Below, one piece after another: positions 1,230 to 19,186 of a stretch of DNA of 20,829 nucleotides. The notes beneath the pieces are model-generated. The model worked only from the letters and a program-made list of their open reading frames with translations, was not told the DNA's origin and searched no databases. The position numbers and the translations under genes were made by a program. Position 1 is the stretch's first letter; each line of letters begins with the position of its first letter. Origin of the DNA: a virus; IMG/VR virus record IMGVR_UViG_3300034118_001235, positions 1 through 20,829 of that record; one strand, written 5' to 3'.

Positions 1230-3344
1230 ATGCAAGTCAAGAAAAGCTACGCGCAGGCCACGCACAAGACGCACGGGCGCTTCTCGAAAGAGGAGGCGCT
1301 CCAGTACGTGACCGCGCGGATCAGCCCGAAGCTGAACGACTCGCATCGGCAACCGATGGAACGCGAGTGGGTCAAGAACCTCGCGTTCCTCAATGGAAAC
1401 CAGTACTTCGTCGACGACGGGATGGGGTTCCGCACGCCCGTCCTGCCCCCGCACAAAGTCGTATACCGGGCGAACATCGTGCGCACGCTCGTCACGCGCG
1501 CGATCAGCACTGTGCTCGCCAGCTCGTCAGTGTTCCGGGCGCCCACGCGCGACCACTCCAAGGCGGAGCGCGACAAGGCGTTCGTCACCGAAAAGCTGTT
1601 CGAGCACCTGCGCGACAACGTGGTGAACTGGAGCGAGCTGCTCGAGGAGGCGCTGACCTGGGCGGCGGTGTGCGGCTCCGGCTTCATCGAGATCGGCTGG
1701 AACGCCGAGGCGGGATCGCCGGACCGCTTCTACGTCGACGAGAACGGCGAGACGATCCTCGGGCTCACGCCGGACCAGCAGCGCATGGCCGAAGAGGAGG
1801 GCCGCTACGAGGACCTGCCGCCGGGCGAAATCACGGCCAAGGTCCACTCGCCGCTGCGCGTGCGCTGGGACTGGAGCTCGCGCACGGACTTCCAGGCCGA
1901 TGAATGCACCTGGGCGGGCACCCAGGAGATCGTCGACATGGCGTCGCTTGAGGACACCTACGGCGCCGCGGCGATCAAGGGCGTGAAGCCGCTCGAGCCG
2001 CGCACCACGTCGTTGTGGTGGGACGAGATGCTCTCGTTCATGCACGGCGGCCAAGCGCAGTCGCCGGGTTTCCTCCAGCCGCGCGACAAGTCCAGAAGCC
2101 GGACGGTGCTCTCGAGGTTCTTCGAGAAGCCGATGCGCAAGAACAACTGGAAGGGCCGCTACATCGTGATCGCGGGCGAGACCGTCCTGGTCAATCGGGA
2201 CAACCCGATGCGCGCGACGAAGTACCCCATCCCCTTCGTCAAGATCGACTGGCAGAAGCGGCCGGGCTCGTTCGTCGGGCACCCGCTCATGGACGACCTG
2301 CGCAACCCCCAGTTCCAGTACAACAACGCGCGGGCGCACCAGACGGAAGTGGTGAACGTCCACTCGCACCCGCCGATCTTCGTCGACAAGCGCTCGGGCC
2401 TGCCGACGGGGATGCTCGCCATCGAGCCGGGCGTCGCGTACCCGTGCGACGTGCTGGCGTCGGGCGGGAAGCCGGTGACGCTGGGGCCGGTGCCGCAGAT
2501 CCCCAAGGAGCTCGCGGACAGCGCGAACCGGGCGCTCAGCGAGATGCAGATGATCTCGAGCCAAGCCGACCCGGACATGAGCAAGCTGCCGGGGCAGATC
2601 CGCTCGCGGCCGGGCCTCGACGCGATGATCGAGGAGAAGAACAAGGCGCTGACGCCGGCGGCGCGGAGCGCCCTGCGCGCGACGCTGACGGGCGGGCGGA
2701 TGATGCTCTCGGTCGCGCGGGCCTTCTACACGACCCGGCGCACGATGCAGTACGTCGGCGCCGACAACGCCTACCGCGTGGCCGAGTTCGAGTCGGCCGA
2801 CATCCGCGACGACATCCGCATCGTCGGCGAGCCGGACTACTTCCAGAGCCGAAGCGTGGAGCGCGCGCGCATCCTGGAGTACGTGCAGGCGGGCGTGCTC
2901 GACCCGATCAACAACCCCGAGGACAAGCTCAGCGTGCTCAAGACGCTGGCCTACGGCGGCGCCGAGGACATCCTCGCGCAGCGGCTCATCGAGGAAGAGA
3001 ACCAGGAACGGGAGTGGGACGAGATGACCGGCGATCCGCTCAAGTGGATGCGCCAGAACGACATGGGCCAGCCGATGCTGGACTACCCGACCCACGACTA
3101 CGACGACGACGGCACGCACGTTCGCGTGATGCAGCAACGGATGCGCTCGGGAGAGTTCCGCGACCTCGACCCGATTGCGCGCCAGCTCGTGATCCAGCAC
3201 TACCAGGATCACGTCGAAAAGATCCAGCGCGCCATGATGCAGCAGATGCAAATGCAGCAGATGGCGCAGCCGGGAGGGTCGGCCAACCGCGGCCAGCCCT
3301 CGAGACCGAAACCCAAGGCATCCCAAGGAGCCGCCCGTGGCTAA
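1230..3344 (+). CDS. Portal protein
   Basis: 704 residues, the size expected of podovirus-type portals. The portal forms a ring at one capsid vertex through which DNA enters and leaves, and it docks terminase and then the tail adaptor. Seen in the sequence: an N-terminal helical region (residues 18-60) ending in LAFLNGNQYF, then NIVRTLVTRAISTVLASS (82-99), a typical early portal helix. A mixed beta region follows (150-350, with VHSPLRVRWDW). A helical stem-like segment (427-449, ELADSANRALSEMQMISSQ) leads to SRPGLDAMIEEKN and a long helix with LRATLTGGRMMLSVARAFY (482-500). The C-terminal part is helical and ends in a Met/Gln-rich stretch (669-678) and a basic Pro/Lys tail. ATG 1230 has GAGGG a few bases upstream. 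The stop overlaps the next gene by eight bases. The assignment rests on motif pattern, size and position after terminase. Confidence 0.88.
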   Translation: MQVKKSYAQATHKTHGRFSKEEALQYVTARISPKLNDSHRQPMEREWVKNLAFLNGNQYFVDDGMGFRTPVLPPHKVVYRANIVRTLVTRAISTVLASSSVFRAPTRDHSKAERDKAFVTEKLFEHLRDNVVNWSELLEEALTWAAVCGSGFIEIGWNAEAGSPDRFYVDENGETILGLTPDQQRMAEEEGRYEDLPPGEITAKVHSPLRVRWDWSSRTDFQADECTWAGTQEIVDMASLEDTYGAAAIKGVKPLEPRTTSLWWDEMLSFMHGGQAQSPGFLQPRDKSRSRTVLSRFFEKPMRKNNWKGRYIVIAGETVLVNRDNPMRATKYPIPFVKIDWQKRPGSFVGHPLMDDLRNPQFQYNNARAHQTEVVNVHSHPPIFVDKRSGLPTGMLAIEPGVAYPCDVLASGGKPVTLGPVPQIPKELADSANRALSEMQMISSQADPDMSKLPGQIRSRPGLDAMIEEKNKALTPAARSALRATLTGGRMMLSVARAFYTTRRTMQYVGADNAYRVAEFESADIRDDIRIVGEPDYFQSRSVERARILEYVQAGVLDPINNPEDKLSVLKTLAYGGAEDILAQRLIEEENQEREWDEMTGDPLKWMRQNDMGQPMLDYPTHDYDDDGTHVRVMQQRMRSGEFRDLDPIARQLVIQHYQDHVEKIQRAMMQQMQMQQMAQPGGSANRGQPSRPKPKASQGAARG

Positions 3345-4984: not shown

Positions 4985-6502
4985 ATGGCAGCCACCGACG
5001 CCGGACTTGGCCTGGGCTTTTCAAGCTCTTCGGCACAAGCCTCCTTCCTGCACTTCCTCACGCGGGATTACGTCTCGAACGTGATCCACGACACGCGCAA
5101 CAACAACGCGCGCATCCTCTCCCTGATCCCCGAGAGCACGAAGTACGTCGGGGGTCGCCACATCCGCGAGCGCGCGATGTACGGCCGCAACCCGCGTCAG
5201 TTCAACGCGGTCGGCGACAACGGCAACTTCCCCGATCCGGGCCAGCGGCGCATGGCGTGGTACGCCTACCGTGGCCGCCAGCAGTTCGGGCGCTTCATCC
5301 TCGACGGCAAGCTGGTCCGCGCCATGTCGAACGGCGCTGGCGACGTGTCGGCGATGGAGATGGAGATCCAGCAGTTCCTCGACGACTACGAGCTCGACCG
5401 CGCGCGGATGCTGTACAGCGACGGCTCGGGCCGCCTGTGCGAGGCCGCGGGGGCGGGCACTGCGGCCTCGGTGGACGTGCCGATCAACTTGCAGATCAAC
5501 CAGGACATCGCTACGGGCCTGAGCGCTCCGGGCGCGAGCGCGACGGGCATGGCGAACGAGCCGCCGACCCGCTGGCTGACGCCGGGGATGCGCGTGTTGT
5601 TCGTGACGAACGTGGGCGTGCCGAAGTGCATCGCCAACGTGGTCTCCATCACGGACGCCGACACGGCGGTTTTCACCGTGCTCTCCTTCAACGCGGCGGC
5701 GTTCACGGACTTCTCGAGCCTCGCTGCGGGCGACTGGATCGTCAAGACCGGCTCGACCGACAACTCGAGCGTGGAGCGTATGCGCCAGAACAGCGCGTAC
5801 CGCTCCGAGCCGATGGGCCTCATGGGCATCCTCGGGTACGGCGGTCCGATGGACGGCACCGGCCGCGCCGCGGAAGTCGGGGCGACGTTCGCCTCCGAAG
5901 TCGAAGGCACGGACAACGGTGCGTTCCAGTGGGGCGGCACCGACGACCGGCTCGGGGCCGACAGCCGCTACTTCCAGGGCCTCGCCTGCATCCCGACCGG
6001 CCTGGGCTGGAACAGCGATCTCGTGTTTAACCAGGGCGTGGTCAACCACAACGGCGGCTCCGTCCGCACCCCCTCCGAGAACCTGCTCATGCAGATCATC
6101 GACGAGGTGGAAGAGCGCAACAGCGCCGAGATCATGGTGTGGCTCTCGAGCTACGCGGCGAAGCGCGTCTACTCGAGCCAGCTCACCGGCGAGAAGCGCT
6201 ACGTCAACACGACGACGCTGCCGGGCGGCTGGAACCGCCTCATGGTCGGCCCCGGCGGCATCCCGTGGCTGGTCGACCGCCTGTTCCCCAAGAACAACAT
6301 CCTGGGGCTCTCGCTCGAGCAGGGCGGCTTCACGAACTGGCTGACCGAGCCGCTCTCGTGGGCCACCGAGCAGGGCGCGAACATCTGGCAGTACCTCCAG
6401 GACATGGACCGCTACCAAGCGCGCACCGTCGAGGAGAGCACGCTGGGCGTCGGCGTCCGCGATCGTTGCGGCGTCCGCATCATGGACATCGAAGAGAGCT
6501 GA
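4985..6502 (+). CDS. Major capsid protein (probable HK97 fold)
   Basis: 505 residues, forming the icosahedral shell. The call comes from position after a scaffold-like gene, size and sequence pattern: an N-terminal arm-like segment (residues 20-65, with FLTRDYVSNVIHDTRNNNAR), a glycine/aromatic region (89-118, WYAYRGRQQFGRFILDGKL) and a long acidic helix (121-145). A beta-rich insertion-type domain (about 195-255, LTPGMRVLFVTNVGVPK to GDWIVKTG) follows. The C-terminal half resembles known capsid cores (VEERNSAEIMVWLSSYAAK at 376-394; GGIPWLVDRLFPKNNILGLS; TVEESTLGVGVRDRCGVRI). ATG 4985 is the only ATG that fits: upstream in frame only a CTG (4955) lies before a stop at 4943. Oddly, no Shine-Dalgarno sequence precedes it, although this should be the most abundant product. 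Hairpins lie on both sides. A GTG at 4951 in another frame also encodes MAAT. Confidence 0.9.
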   Translation: MAATDAGLGLGFSSSSAQASFLHFLTRDYVSNVIHDTRNNNARILSLIPESTKYVGGRHIRERAMYGRNPRQFNAVGDNGNFPDPGQRRMAWYAYRGRQQFGRFILDGKLVRAMSNGAGDVSAMEMEIQQFLDDYELDRARMLYSDGSGRLCEAAGAGTAASVDVPINLQINQDIATGLSAPGASATGMANEPPTRWLTPGMRVLFVTNVGVPKCIANVVSITDADTAVFTVLSFNAAAFTDFSSLAAGDWIVKTGSTDNSSVERMRQNSAYRSEPMGLMGILGYGGPMDGTGRAAEVGATFASEVEGTDNGAFQWGGTDDRLGADSRYFQGLACIPTGLGWNSDLVFNQGVVNHNGGSVRTPSENLLMQIIDEVEERNSAEIMVWLSSYAAKRVYSSQLTGEKRYVNTTTLPGGWNRLMVGPGGIPWLVDRLFPKNNILGLSLEQGGFTNWLTEPLSWATEQGANIWQYLQDMDRYQARTVEESTLGVGVRDRCGVRIMDIEES

Positions 6503-8749: not shown

Positions 8750-9712
8750 ATGCGCCTCTCGAAAGCCATCGAGGCGGTACGGGAGGTTCTCCAGGCTCCC
8801 GACTCGACTCAGTGGGACGACAAGCAGATCGTCCAGCACATCAACCGGCACATCATGTCGCTCGCGCGGCGCATGGCGGAGGTTGACGAGGGCTACCTGA
8901 ACGCGAGCTTCGTGCTGCCCAAGACGGCGGCGCGCAAGGTGAAGGCCGACGTGTGGGACTACACGCTCCCGCCGTGGGTTGAGCGGATCGCGGAGGTTCG
9001 GCGCGCGGGTTCGCCGACGGATCCCACGGGCGCCGCGCGCGACGCGGTGGTCCCGGTGGTGGGCAAGCTCGGGTCCAACGGCTGGACGACCCAGGGGCGC
9101 AGCCTGCGCCTCGTGACGAGCATTGACCCGATCGACCTGGAGGTCGGTGTCTCCAAGACCCCGGCCGCCCTGACAAAAGGCACGCTGCCGACCCAGGCAA
9201 ACCTCCCGGCGTCTCCGGCGGGCGCGTACCTACGCCTGGACGCGGACACGAGCGCGGACGCACTGGTCTACCCGCACGAGACGCTGGCCGGCGCGTACAT
9301 CAACGCGATCGTGGAGATCACGGGCAACTCGGCGCGGGCGGGCCAGCTTCTCACGGTGGTCGGCTCGACGCACTTCCAGAACGAAGCGGGAACGCTCTAC
9401 ACGGTGCTCCAGCTTGAGAGCGCGTGGGCGGCCGCTCCGCAGGCGGGCGACACCTACGAACTGCGCAGCGAGATCCCCGAGCAGCACATGCAACTCGTGG
9501 TGCTTCTCGCGGCTCATTCGCTGTGGGCGACGCGCGGGCAGTACGAACAGCAGAAGGCTAACGCTCAGTTGCTCCAGGAGGAGATGTCGGCTTTCATGCG
9601 GCACATCACGCCGCGGCAGGTCCAGCAGCCGTACTATCTGCGCAGAACGATCCTGCCCCCGGCGTCGACGCTGATGCGCGGCGAGGACTCGTACAACACC
9701 CTTTGGAAGTGA
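8750..9712 (+). CDS. Probable head-tail adaptor (connector) protein
   Basis: 320 residues; ATG 8750 has GGAG at 8738-8741. The N-terminus (MRLSKAIEAVREVLQ, then WDDKQIVQHINRHIMSLARRMAEVDEGYL, residues 1-50) is the helical pattern common in gp4/gp11-like adaptors, which bind under the portal and start the short tail. A beta-rich middle (about 110-240) includes LRLDADTSADALVYPHE and AGQLLTVVGSTHFQNEAGTLY. The C-terminal helices (245-285, MQLVVLLAAHSLWATRGQYEQQKANAQLLQEEM) match the aliphatic plus Gln/Glu pattern of the same group. The tail (PYYLRRTILPP) is basic and aromatic. Position after the head genes and before the large tail genes agrees. The identification is by pattern and place rather than a diagnostic motif, so it could instead be another neck protein. 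Confidence 0.6.
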   Translation: MRLSKAIEAVREVLQAPDSTQWDDKQIVQHINRHIMSLARRMAEVDEGYLNASFVLPKTAARKVKADVWDYTLPPWVERIAEVRRAGSPTDPTGAARDAVVPVVGKLGSNGWTTQGRSLRLVTSIDPIDLEVGVSKTPAALTKGTLPTQANLPASPAGAYLRLDADTSADALVYPHETLAGAYINAIVEITGNSARAGQLLTVVGSTHFQNEAGTLYTVLQLESAWAAAPQAGDTYELRSEIPEQHMQLVVLLAAHSLWATRGQYEQQKANAQLLQEEMSAFMRHITPRQVQQPYYLRRTILPPASTLMRGEDSYNTLWK

Positions 9713-9717
9713 CCCCA

Positions 9718-10317
9718 ATGTCGATCTACGAACGCGGCGCCAAGTGGATGCACCTGACCGGCGCGACGAACAACCTGCGCTGCATCCCCGGCGACGGCGC
9801 GGGCTCGCGCCTCGATGAAGCGGTGAACACCACGGTCGCGGCGTACACGACCAACGTGACCGACCAGAAGCGCCAGTGCGTGCTCACGGCGACGACCACG
9901 GTTGCGCCCGGCCAGCTCGCCATCACGTCGGACGGATTTTTCGGGACCGTCGTGTCGGTGAGCGGCGGGACTGGCGTTCTCACTGTGGACCGCTGGCTGA
10001 GCACGCGGGCTGAGGGTCCGGCGATGCGCGGCCCGGCGGCGACGCAGACGATCCGGTTCTTCCCGGCGGGCTCGTGCTTGGCGGGTGCGCAGAAGGTGCG
10101 GCTCCTGCGCATGATCCCAACGAAGTCGATCACCGGGGCCGCGCTGTCGCACATCCTCGACTACCGCATGGCGACGGCGACGCCTGTGCTGCCCTACAAC
10201 AGCGTCGTCGGCGAACTCGGCCCGGTCGACCTCGACATCCAGCTCGGCGGGCCGTTCGGGCTCATCACGGACACGATCGCTCGCTTCGACTGCACCGTCA
10301 CGTTCACGCTGAACTGA
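9718..10317 (+). CDS. Probable virion (neck or tail) protein, 199 residues
   Basis: The start is ATG 9718, with GGAAG (9705-9709) eight bases upstream; a GTG at 9709 and a TTG at 9703 are in frame but less well placed. The protein is rich in Thr, Val, Ala and Gly and looks mostly beta: AAYTTNVTDQKRQCVLTATT, QLAITSDGFFGTVVSVSGGTGVLTVDRW (residues 67-93), and a C-terminal IARFDCTVTFTLN. There is no membrane segment or enzymatic motif. Three Cys (22, 54, 120) and C182 have no metal-binding spacing. It lies between the adaptor and the giant LamG-like gene. A neck, tail-tube-like or decoration role fits, but no family is recognised. Confidence 0.75.
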   Translation: MSIYERGAKWMHLTGATNNLRCIPGDGAGSRLDEAVNTTVAAYTTNVTDQKRQCVLTATTTVAPGQLAITSDGFFGTVVSVSGGTGVLTVDRWLSTRAEGPAMRGPAATQTIRFFPAGSCLAGAQKVRLLRMIPTKSITGAALSHILDYRMATATPVLPYNSVVGELGPVDLDIQLGGPFGLITDTIARFDCTVTFTLN

Positions 10318-10324
10318 GAGCACC

Positions 10325-13300
10325 ATGCCGAACCAGCCGGGGCGGCGCCACTACCGGCGCTATCCGATCAAGCCCTTGGCGTTGGGCCTGAACGACGCGC
10401 TGAATCCGGCTCTGCTCCAGGACGGGCAGACGCCGGACTGCGAGAACGTCGACTTCGACCGCGAAAGCGTTTCGGGCTCGGGTGGCGCGGTGAAGTTCAA
10501 CAACCAGCCGGCGCCGCACTCGGGCGTGCTGACCACGGTGTCGGAGGCTCCGCTGGGCGGCGTTCCATCGCGCGGCTATGTGTTCGTGCCGTACCGGCGC
10601 GAGCAAGACCTCGGCGGCGACTTCGCGCTCTCGGGGACGGCGCTCAACACGTCCACGCACGAGTTCCACGGCCGGCGCGGCAAGTCGTTCACGTTCTCGA
10701 TCGGGTTCCGGCTGCCGATCGACGAGAAGCTCTACGCGCCGCAGGCTGGCTCGGGCGCACCGGCCTCGGCGTCGAGCGAGATCAACACCTACGACGAGGG
10801 GCTCGAGGAGTGCTCGCTGCTCGCGCAGAAGGGCGGCGATGCCTTCTCGCCGATGTCGTGGGCGCTGGGCATCGTCAACACGGGCGACCAGTTCGAGACG
10901 ATCACGGGCGCCGCGGCGTTCGACCGGCCAAGCAACTATGCGCTGGTGTTCATGTGGTACGACGCTCCGGGCTGGGGTGCGTACGGCGGAAACCAGATGC
11001 GCTACCTCGTGGGCGCGGGCGGCGCGAACGTCGGATCGTCGGGCCGTCAGGCGACGATTGGGCTGCGCGCGATCATCGCCAAGGCGTTCATCGAGCCTGG
11101 GCGCGACTACCAAGTCGCCGTGCGGCTGCGGCTGGACACGGGGACGCCGGGCGACGCGACGAGCTCGAACCCCACCGCGGCGTGGAACAGCGATGGCGCG
11201 TTCGAGATCGTGCTGCGCGACCAAGCGGGCACGGTGACGCGCTGCGCGACGAGCGGGACCGACCTGTTCTCGTGGAAAGGCCCGATCGACAACTTCGACT
11301 ACCTCACGCGCTACGGCGTGCGGTTCTCGGGGCGCGATCCGATGTTCCTCGGTCTCGGGATGCGCTTCGAGCCCTGGGCGGATCAGGGCTTCGCGCCGCT
11401 CGGGCTGGACTCGGCGCGCTTGGCTTCGGGCGGGCATCGCATGATCGACGTGTCGGCGAGCGGTCCCCCGGCCGCGTACCCCGCAGGCCAGACGTGCAAC
11501 TACACGATCGGGGTGGCGCACCTCTCGATCAACCTCCAGGGGATGCATGGCAACGCGGCCAACGCGGCGGCGAACCTGCCGAACCCCTACGACCCTCTGG
11601 ACTTGGCGACCGCGGCCGGGCCTTGGCCTGGGCTTTTCAACGCTGGAACGGGAGCGATCCCGGACCAGGGGACGGCTGGCCAGTCCGAGGCTCTGCGCAA
11701 CTGCTGGGTGGCGCTGTGGAACGGCGGCGGCGCGACGCCAACGGCCATTCGCGGCGGCCGGGTGCGAATTGGGCACTACGCGGAGGGCGGAGGAACGAAC
11801 CGGCTCGTGCGCGCCGATGGGCTGGTGGCTGGGACCGGCTGGGCGACGAACGCGCCGTTCTTCGTCATCGTGTTCCGCTGGCGGCAGCGTCCGCTGGCGC
11901 TCTCGAGCTTTCGCATCTGGACCACGGCGCGAGACCTGACGACGGCGCGGGCGCGCTTCTCGCTGGCGTCGTACTCGCTCCCCGATGACCTGACGGAGCC
12001 GGACATCTCCAGCCTCGTCGGCGAGTGGCCGATGGACGACGCGGGCGGCGGCGTGCTGCGCGATCGCGTGGCGGGCAACGATGCGTACCTCGCGCCCTAC
12101 ACGCTCGGCCGCGGCTCGGGCAAGCTGTTCCTGAGCGGCGAGGGCGAGGCGCTGACGCTCGACATGGAGGAGGACAGCGTTCTGCGGCGCGAGCTCGCGG
12201 AGATGCTGCGCTCCGGCTCGTCGGGGTTTGCCATCGAGTTCTCGTGTGTGATTCCGCAGGCGTACTACGGGCGCGAGGTCCTCGTTGGCGCGACGCAACG
12301 CCGCACGCAGGGCGCCCCCGTGCTGGCCTCCTGGGAGATTCGAGACGACACGCCTGCTTTGAGGGTGGCGGCTCGACCGATGCTGCGCCTCTCGAACGCG
12401 AGCGCCGTGCCGTTTGCGGCGGCATCCCATCCGTTCTTCTTCCCGCAGGGCTTCACGCTCGAGGTGGACACGCAGCCCGACAATGAAACGGGCTCGCTGG
12501 CGGTCGCGGTGGAGCCTTGGTCGACCGGGCCGGTGGCGAACTTCTCGACCACGGCGGAGTGGGTCGGCGAGCGCATCCGCATCCAGATTGGCGTGCAGTC
12601 GACTGGCAACCCGGACGAGTACCGCGTCTACATGGCGGCGTCGCCCAAGAGCGTTCTTGCGCCGGCGGCGGGCGATCCGCCGAACGCGGAGTTCGCGTAC
12701 TTCTCGACGCTGACGATCTCGCGCCGCGCCCTGCTCCGCTCGGTCGTGGTGATCGGCGGGGCGTGGCGGCCGGAGTCGCTGCGCGTCGGCGAGTTCAACG
12801 CGCGCATGATCGTCGAGGACGTGCGGGTGTTCGGCGTGGCCGCCCCTGGGGCGCTTCCGGCCGCAAGCGGCGGCGTCACTCCGGCGGGGACGGGCAAGCT
12901 CTCGGGCGCCCGCGCGCTGCCTCCGGGCAAGCTCTCGCGGGCCGACCTGCTCAATCCGCTGAACGCGGCGGCGTCTGGCGTCAACGTCACGCGCGAGTCT
13001 GCGTCGGTGGCGTCGGCTGGCGGCGTGCCGTTCTTTGCGAGCGAGCCGGAGGACACTCTCGACGCCGCGAAGGAGACGTTCGTGCGCGTGTCGCGCGACG
13101 AGCTCGAGGTGCGCCAGGAGGACACGGCCCCGGTCGTGCTCAACGAGTTCTACTACGCGCCGAGCGTCTCGGGCTCGACACTCACGCTCTCGCGGCCCTT
13201 CGACGGCCCGACGATGCGCAACGTCAGCGCGGCGAGCTTCCGCGTCATTGGCTACACGGCGTTCGACGACGACATCTCGCACATCACGGTGCAGACCTCG

Positions 13301-14560
13301 ATGGGCGCTCCGTTCGCCGCTGGAACGAACGTTCCGAGCGACGCGGGAATCACGCGCTACGTGTTCGCCAACCTCTCGCCGTGCGCCGCGGAGTGGACGA
13401 TCCGCACGCTCTCGCCGGCGGTGTTCGCGCTGGATGCTGCTCCGCGGTGGTGGCGTGCTCCGTCCGTGCCTCGCCGCAATCCGGTGCTCGGGATGCGATC
13501 GCACCGGGGCCAACTGTTCGCAGCGACGCGCGGGGCGCTGTACCTCGCCGACGACCGCTGGCGCACCGACGGGCCGACCGAGACGATCAAGCGCAGCCTG
13601 CACCTGCGGGGGCGGATGCTCGAGGGCTCTGGCGCGTGCGCTCCGCTCGAAAGCGACGGCGTTCGGTTCGACTCGGCGACCGGCTTGGAGGTCACGGGCG
13701 CGCGCCTGGGGACCGGCTTCTCGATCGACGCCTGGGTCAAGCTCGACGCGCTGGCCGACGTGCAGACGATCCTCTGGGTCGGATCGCTGTCGACCAACCC
13801 GATGCGCAACGCGAGCGGCTCTGCCGGGCAGCACAAGGTTCACCTGTGGATCAGGCTGGCGAACGGTGCGCCGGAGCTTGCCATCGGCTCGACCGCGACG
13901 TTCGACGGGACGAACCGGCCTGCGGGCGGACTGTTCGTGGCGCGCGGCGCGGCGACGCTCAAGGTAGGCGAGTGGACGCACGTTCGCTTTGCCCTGGCCG
14001 GTGCGCAGTCCAATACCTGGATCTCGAGCTCGGTCGGGTGCTTCGTCAACGGCCGATCCGTCGGCGTGCGGCTCCTGGCGACCGAGAACGCGGCGCCGTC
14101 CGACTCCTGGGTCCAGCTCTCGGGCATGGTCCCGATCGCGGGCTGCTCGGCGCTGCTCGGCGTCGCGCGCGATGCGTACTCGGACCCGGAAACCGCGCGG
14201 CCGTTCGTCGACACCGTGGCGGGCGGCGTGGTGTTCCGGCCCAACCGATTCCACGGCAGACTCCACGCGCTCGGCGGGCTGCTTGCCCGCGTCGCTGCGC
14301 GCACTGGAGCGGCAACCGCGGGGTTCCAGCCGGAGGCGCTCGCGGACGCAAGCCCGACGTTCCTGGCGCTCGCGGCGCCCGAGGGCATCGGTCACAAGAC
14401 GCTCGACTCTGGCGGCGCGCAGTACGGGGTGATCGAATCGCATCCGGCGATCAGCCTCTTCCACGAAATGGGCCTGCACGAGAATCCTGCGAGCTGGGCG
14501 CTGTACGGCGCCGCGCTGTTCGTCACCACGGGCGGGAGGCCGGTCCATGTTCGCGGTTAG
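10325..14560 (+). CDS. Giant LamG/concanavalin-like tail protein with nozzle-like N-terminus
   Basis: 1411 residues, the largest gene here; ATG 10325 has GAGAG four bases upstream. Residues 15-60 (IKPLALGLNDALNPALLQDG, then ENVDFDRESVSGSGGAVKFN) look like the N-terminus of phage tail nozzle/stabilisation proteins. Three beta-sandwich regions can be argued. The first (about 105-400) contains SFTFSIGFRLP. The second (about 565-840) contains LVGEWPMDDAGGGVLRDRVAGN and GFAIEFSCVIP. The third and clearest (1095-1320) contains GFSIDAWVKLDALADVQTILW, LKVGEWTHVRFALA and FVNGRSVGVRL, the LamG/concanavalin order of strands. Between them (1050-1080) lies RSHRGQLFAATRGALYLADDRW, a propeller-blade-like strand set. 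LamG-like folds often bind sugars, so receptor binding or tail decoration is plausible. It overlaps the next gene by 14 bases. The exact domain borders are uncertain. Confidence 0.72.
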   Translation: MPNQPGRRHYRRYPIKPLALGLNDALNPALLQDGQTPDCENVDFDRESVSGSGGAVKFNNQPAPHSGVLTTVSEAPLGGVPSRGYVFVPYRREQDLGGDFALSGTALNTSTHEFHGRRGKSFTFSIGFRLPIDEKLYAPQAGSGAPASASSEINTYDEGLEECSLLAQKGGDAFSPMSWALGIVNTGDQFETITGAAAFDRPSNYALVFMWYDAPGWGAYGGNQMRYLVGAGGANVGSSGRQATIGLRAIIAKAFIEPGRDYQVAVRLRLDTGTPGDATSSNPTAAWNSDGAFEIVLRDQAGTVTRCATSGTDLFSWKGPIDNFDYLTRYGVRFSGRDPMFLGLGMRFEPWADQGFAPLGLDSARLASGGHRMIDVSASGPPAAYPAGQTCNYTIGVAHLSINLQGMHGNAANAAANLPNPYDPLDLATAAGPWPGLFNAGTGAIPDQGTAGQSEALRNCWVALWNGGGATPTAIRGGRVRIGHYAEGGGTNRLVRADGLVAGTGWATNAPFFVIVFRWRQRPLALSSFRIWTTARDLTTARARFSLASYSLPDDLTEPDISSLVGEWPMDDAGGGVLRDRVAGNDAYLAPYTLGRGSGKLFLSGEGEALTLDMEEDSVLRRELAEMLRSGSSGFAIEFSCVIPQAYYGREVLVGATQRRTQGAPVLASWEIRDDTPALRVAARPMLRLSNASAVPFAAASHPFFFPQGFTLEVDTQPDNETGSLAVAVEPWSTGPVANFSTTAEWVGERIRIQIGVQSTGNPDEYRVYMAASPKSVLAPAAGDPPNAEFAYFSTLTISRRALLRSVVVIGGAWRPESLRVGEFNARMIVEDVRVFGVAAPGALPAASGGVTPAGTGKLSGARALPPGKLSRADLLNPLNAAASGVNVTRESASVASAGGVPFFASEPEDTLDAAKETFVRVSRDELEVRQEDTAPVVLNEFYYAPSVSGSTLTLSRPFDGPTMRNVSAASFRVIGYTAFDDDISHITVQTSMGAPFAAGTNVPSDAGITRYVFANLSPCAAEWTIRTLSPAVFALDAAPRWWRAPSVPRRNPVLGMRSHRGQLFAATRGALYLADDRWRTDGPTETIKRSLHLRGRMLEGSGACAPLESDGVRFDSATGLEVTGARLGTGFSIDAWVKLDALADVQTILWVGSLSTNPMRNASGSAGQHKVHLWIRLANGAPELAIGSTATFDGTNRPAGGLFVARGAATLKVGEWTHVRFALAGAQSNTWISSSVGCFVNGRSVGVRLLATENAAPSDSWVQLSGMVPIAGCSALLGVARDAYSDPETARPFVDTVAGGVVFRPNRFHGRLHALGGLLARVAARTGAATAGFQPEALADASPTFLALAAPEGIGHKTLDSGGAQYGVIESHPAISLFHEMGLHENPASWALYGAALFVTTGGRPVHVRG

Positions 14561-17500
14561 AGCCAAGCACGCCGGGGTTCGCCCCCCGGTCTCACGCCCC
14601 GAGTTCGAGCTCCGCCGCGGTGCGCCGCTGTGGACGCCCAACTTCCGCAGCGGGATCAACCCGGAGAACGATCCGATCGGTCCGACTTCGACGGCCGACT
14701 CGCGGATCTACCACTACCAGACCGACGGGAACGCCTACCTCGAACAACCGTTTGACGCCGAGATGGCGTTCGAGCCCGCCGCGACCGGGTTGCACGCCAG
14801 CGCCGACGTGTTCGCGTTCAAGTGCTTGGTCAAGCCGCACGAGATCAACGGGCGGCGCTTGCTCTACTCGAATAAGGGCGAAGGCGTGGCCTCGGGCGGC
14901 ATCTTCGTCGACATCCTCGATGGCAAGCTGCGCCTCGGCTGGTACGACACGGTGCTCAAGAAGGAGGTCTGGATCGAGACTTCCGTTCCCGTGTTCGATC
15001 CGCACCACTGGCACTACGTCTACGTGCGCAAGCGCTATCCGAGCAAGTCGCTGGGGTCGGGGTGCTGGAGAGACACGATTTTCGGCCTGACGACTTCGCA
15101 GCTCAACGACGTGATGCTCGTGCGTCGGTTCCGCAAGACGGATGCGAGCTTCTACCAGCGCCGGACGTGGGACTACAAGCGGCACGCATCGGTGCGGCAG
15201 TTCATCGGCTTCACGACCGATCTGGATTTCAGTGTCGGGGGGTCCGCTGGAACCGGGCTCGTCTCGCACAACGGCCTCACGTACACCGGCGACATCGTGG
15301 GCAACATCACGGCGAGCGGGGCGTGCTTCTCGCGCGACATGCTCGGGATGCTGTTCTGTCCAGGAAATGGACCTTTCGCGGGCCAGTCGTTCGTCATCGA
15401 CGCCTTCACGTCGTCAACCATCGTGACCGTCGTGGACCCGATCACCGGCGTGGCGGTGGACCTCACCACACTCGTCAACGACTTGGGCGGCGTCTACACG
15501 GGCGTCAAGCTCATCAAGTCCGATGGCTTCGCCGACAGCGAGAACGTCGACCAGTCGACCTACGCGACCAACCTCTTCGGCTCGCACTTGGCGCTGGATG
15601 CAAGCAGCGGCGTGATGCCGTTTGTTGGCGAGTTCGCGTCCTTCGCCTACATCGTGGAGTCGGGTGCGACGCCCAACCTGTTCGAGCCGAGCAACACGAA
15701 CCTCGCGGGTGGCCTCAGCGCCGACTTGGCCGACGACGGCTGCGACCTGTTCAACGACTTCGAGATTTTCCAGTCGAGCACGGTCGGCCCCGGCGAACTG
15801 CACGCGCACGAAGTAGCCCGTGACTCCTTCACCGCCGTCGACACGCAGCCGCTCGCTGGCGACGATCAGGCGAGCACGAAGCCGAACGAGACGATGCGGA
15901 TCGCGCCCGAGGCTGCGCCCTCGAGTGCGCGCGTCACGCCGCTCACTTGGCGCTTCCTGCGCGAGCGCGGCGAGATGGTGCAGAAGATCCGCGTGCGCTG
16001 CGCGTTCTACGACCCCGAGCAAGCTCAGGTGTCCGCGCCCGGCCCCGAGCTCGAGATCGACCCCGGCGGCGACGACGCGAGCAACACGAGCTCGAAGGTC
16101 GAAATCAAGCTCACCGAGCTCCCGGCCCCGGTCGACCGCGGCGAGATCGAAACCTGGGTGTACGCGACGCTGCCCGGCACGTTCTCGTTCTTCAAGGTCG
16201 CCGAGGTCCCCAAGGGCGCAACGTCGACCTCTTTCTCGCCGACGCTCGACGAGCTCGCGCGCGGGCTGCCCCTGGAGTTCGACAACTGGCCGCCGCCGGA
16301 GTGCAGCGTGCTCGAGGTGTCTCAGAGCTCGCTGGTCTGCGGCAACCTGCGGCGCTGGGTGAACAGCGACGAGGGGAACCCGACTGACTTCCCCGACGTG
16401 GCCGTGTTCTCGAAGCCGAATCGGCCGCTCGCGTTCCCCGCGGAGAACATCATCGCGGTCCCGGACTCGTCGCGTGAAGGTGTGACAGGTCTCCGCGACT
16501 TCAACGGCCGCCTGCTCATCACCAAGCGCGACACGATCCACCGCGCTGCGCTGCGCCAGGGCGCGGCTCAGAGCGAGGTCGTGAGCAAGACGTTCGGCTG
16601 CTCGAGCGGGCAGTCGCTCATCGAGCACGAGGGCGTGCTGATGTTCTGGGGCAAGCGCGGCGTGTACGCCTACGACGGCTCGGGGATTCCGCGCTGGATC
16701 GGCGCGAACGTCCGCGAGCTGTTCGAGACGGGGATCGAGCCCGGCGCCGCGCTCGAGTCCGTGGCCGGTGTGAATCCGCGCCGCAACCAAGTCGTGTTCA
16801 CGCTGCGCGAGGTCGACGCGCTCTACAAGAGCCACCGCCTCAGCGTGGAGCCGTTCGGCGGCGGGCTGCGCTTCTCGCGCTACGAAGCTCCCAACCTCAC
16901 GGCGCTGGTCGATCACGCGACCGATGACGGCGAGGTCGGCGAGTTCGCCGGCGGCACCGAGGAAGGGTTCTTCGTCTGGCTGGACCGCCAGGACTCGTCG
17001 CTCGTGATGCTCGGCGCGGCGGCCACGCACGGCGCTTCGTCGCTCACGGTTGGCGTGGGCAGCACCACCACGCAGATCGTTGTCTCGGGTGGTACGCTCG
17101 ACCTCGCGCTTGCGGGGCCTCGGGGCGCGGTTGCTTCATGGGGGAACGAGCGACGCATGGCGCTCGCGGTTGAAGCTGGGACCCTGCTTCTCGATCGCCC
17201 CGCGAGCGCGCCTCCGGCTCAGGGCACCACGATCCGTCTCGGCGTGGCGCCGCGGTACTGGGAGACGCGCTGGCTCGACTTCGAGGACAGCGAGAGCGTG
17301 AAGCGCGCCCGCTACCTGGACGTGACGACGAAGCTCGGGACGGGTGCGCTGCGCGTCAGCGCGTTCCTGGACTTCGGAGCGACGGCGCGGTCCTTGATCC
17401 CTCACAACTCCAACCCGCCGCCGAGCGAGATCAACCTCGCCACGCGCGCCGTGACCCGCTTCGACATCGGCCACTTGAACGCCCGACATTTCAAGTTCCG

Positions 17501-17570
17501 GTTCGAGGCTGACGTTCCTTTCGAGATCATCGAGCTCGTGTTCCGCGTCTCCGATGTCGACCCGACCTGA
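14547..17570 (+). CDS. Tail nozzle/stabilisation-like protein with N-terminal LamG-like region
   Basis: 1007 residues. ATG 14547 has GGGAGG (14534-14539) seven bases upstream, inside the previous gene. Residues 80-230 look LamG-like (FAFKCLVKPHEINGRRLLYS, GGIFVDILDGKLRLGWYD, HHWHYVYVRKR), followed by a beta-rich region to about 410. From 455 the pattern changes to that of tail nozzle proteins (P22 gp10/T7 gp12-type): a fibronectin-like strand set (462-560, WRFLRERGEMVQKIRVRCAFYD), then propeller strands. These include LRDFNGRLLITKRDTIHRAAL (649-669), SLIEHEGVLMFWGKRGVYAYDG (690-711), VNPRRNQVVFTLRE (742-755) and EEGFFVWLDRQDSSLV. The end (HFKFRFEADVPFEIIELVFRVS) is the usual closing strand set. 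The product should extend the neck into the short tail. The last 17 bases overlap the next gene. Confidence 0.75.
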   Translation: MFAVRAKHAGVRPPVSRPEFELRRGAPLWTPNFRSGINPENDPIGPTSTADSRIYHYQTDGNAYLEQPFDAEMAFEPAATGLHASADVFAFKCLVKPHEINGRRLLYSNKGEGVASGGIFVDILDGKLRLGWYDTVLKKEVWIETSVPVFDPHHWHYVYVRKRYPSKSLGSGCWRDTIFGLTTSQLNDVMLVRRFRKTDASFYQRRTWDYKRHASVRQFIGFTTDLDFSVGGSAGTGLVSHNGLTYTGDIVGNITASGACFSRDMLGMLFCPGNGPFAGQSFVIDAFTSSTIVTVVDPITGVAVDLTTLVNDLGGVYTGVKLIKSDGFADSENVDQSTYATNLFGSHLALDASSGVMPFVGEFASFAYIVESGATPNLFEPSNTNLAGGLSADLADDGCDLFNDFEIFQSSTVGPGELHAHEVARDSFTAVDTQPLAGDDQASTKPNETMRIAPEAAPSSARVTPLTWRFLRERGEMVQKIRVRCAFYDPEQAQVSAPGPELEIDPGGDDASNTSSKVEIKLTELPAPVDRGEIETWVYATLPGTFSFFKVAEVPKGATSTSFSPTLDELARGLPLEFDNWPPPECSVLEVSQSSLVCGNLRRWVNSDEGNPTDFPDVAVFSKPNRPLAFPAENIIAVPDSSREGVTGLRDFNGRLLITKRDTIHRAALRQGAAQSEVVSKTFGCSSGQSLIEHEGVLMFWGKRGVYAYDGSGIPRWIGANVRELFETGIEPGAALESVAGVNPRRNQVVFTLREVDALYKSHRLSVEPFGGGLRFSRYEAPNLTALVDHATDDGEVGEFAGGTEEGFFVWLDRQDSSLVMLGAAATHGASSLTVGVGSTTTQIVVSGGTLDLALAGPRGAVASWGNERRMALAVEAGTLLLDRPASAPPAQGTTIRLGVAPRYWETRWLDFEDSESVKRARYLDVTTKLGTGALRVSAFLDFGATARSLIPHNSNPPPSEINLATRAVTRFDIGHLNARHFKFRFEADVPFEIIELVFRVSDVDPT

Positions 17571-18496: not shown

Positions 18497-19186
18497 ATGG
18501 CAGTCATTGAGGGTGCAGTCAGTCTTGCTCTTGCCGGCGTCGGCGCCGAGGCGTCGTCTCCGCTCCACGTCGTCTCGAAGCCCACGCCGCACGGAGCGCT
18601 GGGCCACTACCGCGTGGCCGCGACGACGGGAGCGATCACGGCTGGGTTGGCCGCCAGTGCGCAGTTGTTTTACTTGCGCTGGACGGACGCAACGCGCTTC
18701 TGCGTCATCACGTACTTCCGCGCTCAGTTCCAGACGCTCACGCCGTTCACCGCTGCGACGCTGACCGACTTTGGATTCGACTTGCACAAAGCGACAGCGG
18801 TGAGTGCGGGCGGCGCTGGGACCGATCTCGGCGCTTCCGTCAAGACTAGGATGCGAACGGGCGGCATGGGCGCGTCGCTTTTGGATGCCTCGGGCCTCAT
18901 GCGCATCAGCGCGAACGTGACGCTCACCAACATCACCACGTTGGATGTGCTGCCGATCGCTCAGAGCCTCGGCGACGCGCAAAGGGTCAACCCGGCTGCG
19001 GGCACGGAAGAGCAGCGCGTGAACGACCCGACGCTGATCTTTGCTCCAGACATGGCTCGCGGTGAGCATCCTCTCGTGCTCGCGCAGAACGAGGGCTTGG
19101 TGTTGCGCAATCGCGCGCTTTGGCCCGTCGCTGGAACGGGCATCGTGCAGGTCGAAATCGCGTGGTCCGAGGTCGACGCTTACTAG
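18497..19186 (+). CDS. Probable virion structural protein, 229 residues
   Basis: ATG 18497 has AGGAG (18486-18490) six bases upstream, one of the best ribosome sites in the window, which suggests strong expression. The protein is Ala/Thr/Gly/Leu-rich and probably mostly beta, with a strand-rich core (residues 50-95: GLAASAQLFYLRWTDATRFCVITYFRAQF). A Gly/Thr/Arg loop region spans 103-125, and the C-terminus (179-229) reads TLIFAPDMARGEHPLVLAQN, EGLVLRN, then GIVQVEIAWSEVDAY. The closing pattern of alternating hydrophobic residues resembles virion beta-sandwich proteins. No catalytic motif or membrane helix is seen. It closes the cluster of small genes after the nozzle-like gene. The 36 bases after it hold only a weak four-base-pair hairpin and the next ribosome site. 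Confidence 0.75.
   Translation: MAVIEGAVSLALAGVGAEASSPLHVVSKPTPHGALGHYRVAATTGAITAGLAASAQLFYLRWTDATRFCVITYFRAQFQTLTPFTAATLTDFGFDLHKATAVSAGGAGTDLGASVKTRMRTGGMGASLLDASGLMRISANVTLTNITTLDVLPIAQSLGDAQRVNPAAGTEEQRVNDPTLIFAPDMARGEHPLVLAQNEGLVLRNRALWPVAGTGIVQVEIAWSEVDAY

Follow-up and report, generated by a model that had tools for sequence, protein, structure and literature searches.

A probable lectin-decorated tail nozzle of short-tailed phages, encoded by two overlapping genes that appear to be halves of one gene split at least twice at the same site

Short-tailed phages keep their DNA channel closed with a nozzle, which must open on host contact. The nozzle of T7, gp12 (6r21, 9jyz), consists of a propeller and a platform and forms a hexamer below a dodecameric adaptor, where it closes the DNA channel, and fibre contact has been linked to its opening (PMC6702177). 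A bacterial receptor that binds tail tubular proteins has also been reported (PMC7241545). The nozzle of SU10 (7z47, 7z4f) carries a dock loop in blade 1 (PMC9509320), and both SU10 and crAss001 have extra domains between propeller blades 2 and 3 (PMC9509320, PMC10172136). The crAss001 muzzle, gp44 (7qol, 7qok), is a large decorated nozzle whose distal domains have been proposed to touch the cell surface (PMC10172136).

The window analysed here, 20,829 nucleotides of IMG/VR virus record IMGVR_UViG_3300034118_001235, is a 20.8-kb fragment with its genes on the plus strand. Two overlapping genes, encoding the chains p1 and p2, lie downstream of the portal and major head protein genes, as expected for a podophage nozzle, and the genes at 8750-10317 occupy a position that fits an adaptor, a putative assignment made by place alone. 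The two chains are quite likely halves of one ancestral single-ORF nozzle that was enlarged by lectin-like domains and reassemble as one hexameric nozzle. The main features of the locus are as follows.

1230-3344, plus strand: portal gene (phrog_156)
4985-6502, plus strand: major head protein gene (phrog_14242)
10325-14560, plus strand: ORF of chain 1 (p1), 1411 aa, nozzle N-terminal part with lectin-like insertions
14534-14539, plus strand: Shine-Dalgarno-like GGGAGG, 7 nt upstream of the p2 ATG
14547-14560, plus strand: overlap from the p2 ATG to the p1 TAG, 14 nt, with p2 in the +1 frame
14547-17570, plus strand: ORF of chain 2 (p2), 1007 aa, LamG-like start followed by most of the nozzle

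The two reading frames, their 14-base overlap and the good ribosome site of the second gene were all exactly as given in a preliminary description of this DNA. That description also remarked that the pair takes up a third of the window. The figure is correct (7.2 of 20.8 kb), but it refers to a fragment, and the pair amounts to about 14% of a 99.0%-identical phage contig of 50.9 kb. This contig continues into proteins of 670 and 2713 aa. The 2713-aa protein (L084:4804-12945, on the G001 contig downstream of the window) has matches to phrog_10691 and phrog_9880 (unknown) and a ParB-like stretch, and is probably a giant ejection or internal virion protein. Within the window, a 229-aa protein at 18497-19186 gave weak profile matches to the PRD1 P2 adsorption protein (E 0.007) and to phrog_16118, which are probably due to chance.

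The second chain was modelled with AF2 from a 16-sequence alignment (mean pLDDT 75.5, pTM 0.53), and a fold search of the PDB with this model returned podophage nozzles at all of ranks 1-22, with E values from 8e-13 to 3e-6, followed by sialidases. These nozzles included the cyanophage A4 portal-tail chain (8e-13), Pa223, T7 gp12, SU10 (E about 1e-10), VP1 and GP4, together with the crAss001 muzzle, P22 (gp10), Pan3 and Sf6. Their TM-scores were low (0.12-0.34 by target length), which would be expected for a decorated and incomplete chain but gives no proof, and counts somewhat against the reading of p1 and p2 as one nozzle. Residues 590-1007 matched columns 233-563 of a nozzle profile made from nine members, environmental "phage stabilization" proteins and their relatives (99.5%, 3e-23), and phrog_511 matched residues 620-714. 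Sequence profiles gave no match to PDB chains at E<10, and the nozzle identity therefore rests on the phage nozzle profiles and the fold search, which establish p2 as a nozzle. The earlier view that p2 begins with a LamG-like region and reads as nozzle and propeller from residue 455 to its end agrees with these results, with the nozzle seen from about residues 450-590 onward and the LamG-like start visible in the model and in lower-ranked PDB matches (neurexin, laminin LG and CBM-bearing sialidases, about 1e-5). The parts of p2 are listed below.

14637-15866, plus strand: p2 31-440, LamG/ConA-like insertion (AF2 model, lower-ranked PDB matches, no nozzle profile match)
15894-16271, plus strand: p2 450-575, putative Ig/FN3-like domain, judged from strands (AF2 secondary structure, no profile match)
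16299-17126, plus strand: p2 585-860, propeller part (nozzle profile match, phrog_511)
17130-17567, plus strand: p2 862-1007, C-terminal nozzle region, probably the platform (end of the profile match, AF2 strands, analogy with T7 gp12 and SU10)

Since p2 590-1007 covers columns 233-563, p2 appears by profile to lack roughly the first third of the nozzle, and two segments of p1 are nozzle-like. A blind scan used 130 windows, each 60 residues long, which covered p1 and the part of p2 outside the nozzle. Only p1 1-75 (34-36) and p1 1021-1110 (27-28) clearly exceeded the background of about 12.5-12.8 ± 4-4.4 against nozzles, and the best of the 130 windows was the p1 N-terminal arm. Residues 13-71 matched nozzle columns 16-79 (70%, P 4e-5), and joining p1 1-95 to p2 raised the nozzle score from 189.3 to 215.7 in a single path over columns 16-563. 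The segment at 1021-1110 was also the best match to p2's own propeller in the window scan (score 28.5) and forms several antiparallel strands in the AF2 model at low confidence. Nozzle-like character had been proposed for p1 residues 15-60 and 1050-1080, and both stretches fall inside the two segments recovered by the scan; to judge from the scan scores, residues 1050-1080 likely fill a blade of the p2 propeller. A second candidate blade, p1 1351-1411, stayed within background both against the nozzle profile and in the 130-window scan. A joined profile with both candidate p1 blades was no better than decoys, and for this reason only 1021-1110 is claimed as a p1 blade, so that in a tally of seven blades the later part lies in p2 and one blade-like segment in p1. 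When p1 1-1110 was modelled with AF2, residues 1-65 and 1030-1110 had pLDDT below about 50 (about 30 for the N-terminal arm, modelled without p2), against 70-92 for the sandwich regions; the low values fit a need for p2 to fold and would equally fit plain disorder or the shallow alignment (14 sequences).

13-75 of p1 and its other parts are placed as follows.

10361-10549, plus strand: p1 13-75, N-terminal nozzle arm, platform-type segment (profile match, window scan)
10607-12934, plus strand: p1 95-870, probably three ConA/LamG-like beta-sandwiches, boundaries approximate (AF2 beta-rich stretches, Foldseek, no nozzle match)
12935-13384, plus strand: p1 871-1020, beta-rich domain of unknown class (AF2 secondary structure, no profile match)
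13385-13654, plus strand: p1 1021-1110, propeller-blade-like segment, core 1051-1080 (nozzle family score 27.9)
13682-14110, plus strand: p1 1120-1262, LamG/ConA-like domain (Pfam Laminin_G_3, E 2.3e-5)
14375-14557, plus strand: p1 1351-1411, conserved end, ...LFVTTGGRPVHVRG, which would hold the first strand(s) of the split hairpin (junction alignment, 16 relatives)

The remainder of p1 was assigned, with moderate confidence, to ConA/LamG-like sandwiches, one domain by Pfam and the others by fold, in keeping with the preliminary description. The Laminin_G_3 match in the window scored 25 bits, slightly under the Pfam curated cut-off of 27.6, and that in the 82% relative L003 scored 28.5 bits (E 2e-6), above it; a match at E <= 0.1 was found in three of 16 members. 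Pfam gave no match for the other sandwiches, which were assigned by fold. Foldseek matches of the p1 model were CELSR1 (5.9e-5), glucuronan lyase (4e-3) and legume lectins (E above 0.05). A BLAST of p1 against p2 for duplication gave no significant match. In one relative (L039:4226-13153), a fused nozzle carries an extra 424-residue insertion at p1 540 (about 540-964) with a weak match to BD-FAE / alpha-beta hydrolases (E 6e-4), perhaps a putative esterase acting on surface polysaccharide.

Twelve distinct, diverged relatives sampled in viral contig searches (L008, L026, L025, L031, L032, L033, L034, L056, L039, L044, L055 and L066) encode a single-ORF nozzle of 2514-2975 aa. The window's p1 is collinear with residues 1-1502 of the 2586-aa protein of L008, and the alignment crosses the p1/p2 junction with gaps of at most a few residues and with 33-38% identity on both sides. 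As these relatives encode p1 and p2 as one collinear protein, the pair represents one gene that has been split, and by alignment p1 and p2 are shown to correspond to two pieces of a nozzle gene. A lectin-rich p1 and a p2 that alone strongly matches nozzles might suggest two separate tail proteins, a complete nozzle and a neighbouring lectin-like adhesin or fibre. This is improbable, given the collinear protein in twelve relatives, the nozzle-like character of p1 1-75 and 1021-1110, and nozzle columns 1-215, which are without counterpart in p2. With p1 and p2 as queries, direct BLAST found no match among 50,697 phage records, and a scan of genome contigs found no prophage relative.

Among the sampled relatives, the two-gene form occurred only in the group of the window (the window, L002/L005, L003/L006 and L004/L007) and in the pair L023/L037, the members of which are 67-79% identical to each other. 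Both ORFs are intact in the near-identical contig L002/L005 (99.0%) and in relatives at 80-82% identity. Since fused relatives are numerous and a single frame change is enough to give the split, an assembly or sequencing frameshift in a protein that is truly fused might be suspected, yet an error of this kind is extremely improbable: the identical 14-nt overlap recurs in L002/L005 and in two contigs at 80-82% identity (L003/L004), L023/L037 form a second lineage with a different, 8-nt overlap at the same predicted hairpin, and the ATG at the second start is kept in all. A third type of break was observed on contig 3300010397_000015 (L064:9389-13906, with L048), in which the nozzle N-terminal arm stops after about 109 aa. 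Between it and the nozzle remainder lies a 361-aa ORF of its own, which belongs to phrog_2448, has weak relatives in phages of Caulobacter and Brevundimonas, and is possibly a tail gene captured inside the nozzle gene.

The p2 ATG is the earliest start codon in its open frame; in the near-identical copy L005, this frame opens at 14109 and its first start is at 14223. The GGGAGG upstream is identical in the 80% relative L007. Over the 30 bases before the p2 start (window 14517-14546), 28 are identical between the window and L007, the proteins of which are 80% identical, and the ribosome site is perhaps maintained along with the coding sequence. A +1 slip of the ribosome is plausible in the context CCC TAG. 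This context occurs at the p1 stop of L007, and both split lineages have p2 in the +1 frame, so that programmed frameshifting at the p1 stop might yield a fused chain of about 2400 residues as part or all of the product, and a fused or mixed nozzle. We regard this as quite unlikely, as the codon preceding the stop varies (GGT in the window, CCC in L007, GTC in L023/L037) with no slip site kept, the p2 frame in L023/L037 opens just one codon ahead of its ATG, and the ATG is retained in every split member. Because the start is conserved and the pre-stop codon is not, the junction sequences favour re-initiation over programmed frameshifting.

The preliminary description had explained the pair as an ancestral nozzle split by the insertion of lectin-like domains. 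Its first part, one nozzle in two chains, is supported by the fused relatives, by the N-terminal segment of p1 and by the restriction of p2 to later columns of the nozzle profile, but insertion did not make the split, because the lectin-like regions are also present in the unsplit relatives; on gene comparison, insertion and split are separate events, of which the split is the later. In the nozzle tree the split state needs two changes, no bootstrap tree had one change, and a single origin (one split clade) was rejected (p-AU 1.1e-5). The major capsid protein tree also separates the split members into these two clades. Each clade has a fused neighbour, which for L023/L037 is L055 (in both trees) and for the group of the window is L066 (in the capsid tree). 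With midpoint rooting of the trees, splitting thus occurred at least twice independently at the same site, although the root might conceivably lie on the stem of a split clade. The tree itself is unrooted, and parsimony alone permits a root beside a split lineage, in which case the two-gene form would be ancestral and the fused proteins would have arisen by fusion. Such a history is very unlikely, as midpoint or central roots give two splits because each split pair has a fused neighbour, and the undecorated nozzles are single genes.

Both breaks fall in one short stretch, "...LYVANGGRxxVI[break]xAGVxxP...", which is read as a predicted hairpin turn adjoining the LamG-like domain that starts p2. 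By analogy with the insertions between blades 2 and 3 in SU10 and crAss001, the split site may be a natural opening of the propeller. The dN/dS values of the two chains are 0.26 and 0.30 between the window and L007 and 0.14 and 0.14 between L023 and L037, and purifying selection acts on both chains in both split pairs. Recurrent fission of a nozzle gene at one site is the surprising part of these results; no report of it was found, and searches of the open-access literature for a two-gene or a LamG-decorated nozzle brought up nothing relevant.

For the reading of p1 and p2 as two halves of one nozzle, the following mechanism is proposed. A nozzle of the T7 gp12, P22 gp10 or crAss001 muzzle kind would have been enlarged to about 2400 residues by lectin-like insertions that separate the N-terminal arm from the first blade-like segment, follow this segment, and also lie at what is now the start of p2. 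The ancestral gene would have been one ORF, and in the lineage of the window the frame would have been broken at the predicted beta-hairpin, where an ATG and ribosome site just upstream of the stop would give two coupled genes. With the overlap and the local ribosome site, the two chains would be made in near-equal amounts and would re-associate as a hexameric nozzle under the adaptor. The first chain would contribute the N-terminal arm and one or more blade-like segments, and would bear most of the lectin-like arms that point outward; the second would contribute the channel-lining propeller and the platform. The arms probably bind host-surface glycans, and glycan contact probably triggers opening of the nozzle; the two-chain assembly, the hexamer, the glycan binding and the opening trigger are proposals. 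A nozzle that itself senses the host surface is plausible because fibre contact in T7 has been linked to opening and a bacterial receptor is reported to bind tail tubular proteins. It is unlikely, though conceivable, that the split is not neutral and that, with the lectin-bearing chain separated from the channel-lining chain at the propeller, chain 1 on binding host glycans draws its blade and arm from the propeller and so opens the DNA gate; if true, a moving part gained from the split would account for two lineages having split at the same hairpin.

Such a nozzle, which carries most of a large lectin-like surface, would let a single molecule both sense the host and close the channel. The natural fused and split pairs offer a test of whether two chains build a propeller and whether the join is the site of gate motion. 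For annotation, where a giant "LamG" protein starts with the N-terminal pattern G-x-N...NVDFD and a nozzle-like ORF follows immediately, the two are probably parts of one nozzle, with the "LamG" protein as its first half.

Compared with described systems, T7 gp12 is among the top fold matches of p2, but it lacks LamG-like domains and is a single chain of 794 aa, and the nozzle here is made of two chains with about 2418 aa in all; no significant sequence similarity was found between gp12 and p1 or p2. The SU10 nozzle, likewise among the top fold matches, has Ig-like insertions in one chain of about 910 residues. The crAss001 muzzle shares its large decorated form, but its distal domain is the "crass fold" and not LamG, and it is one chain of about 1360 residues. 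The closest detectable sequence relatives are of the P22 gp10 / Sf6 gp8 kind, with the environmental "phage stabilization protein" (e.g. UOF77960.1, MW202497.1; tblastn E 2e-5 with L008 as query, profile 3e-23), and these are undecorated single chains of 470-730 aa. Against these, the pair described here is a real and extreme form of the nozzle family.
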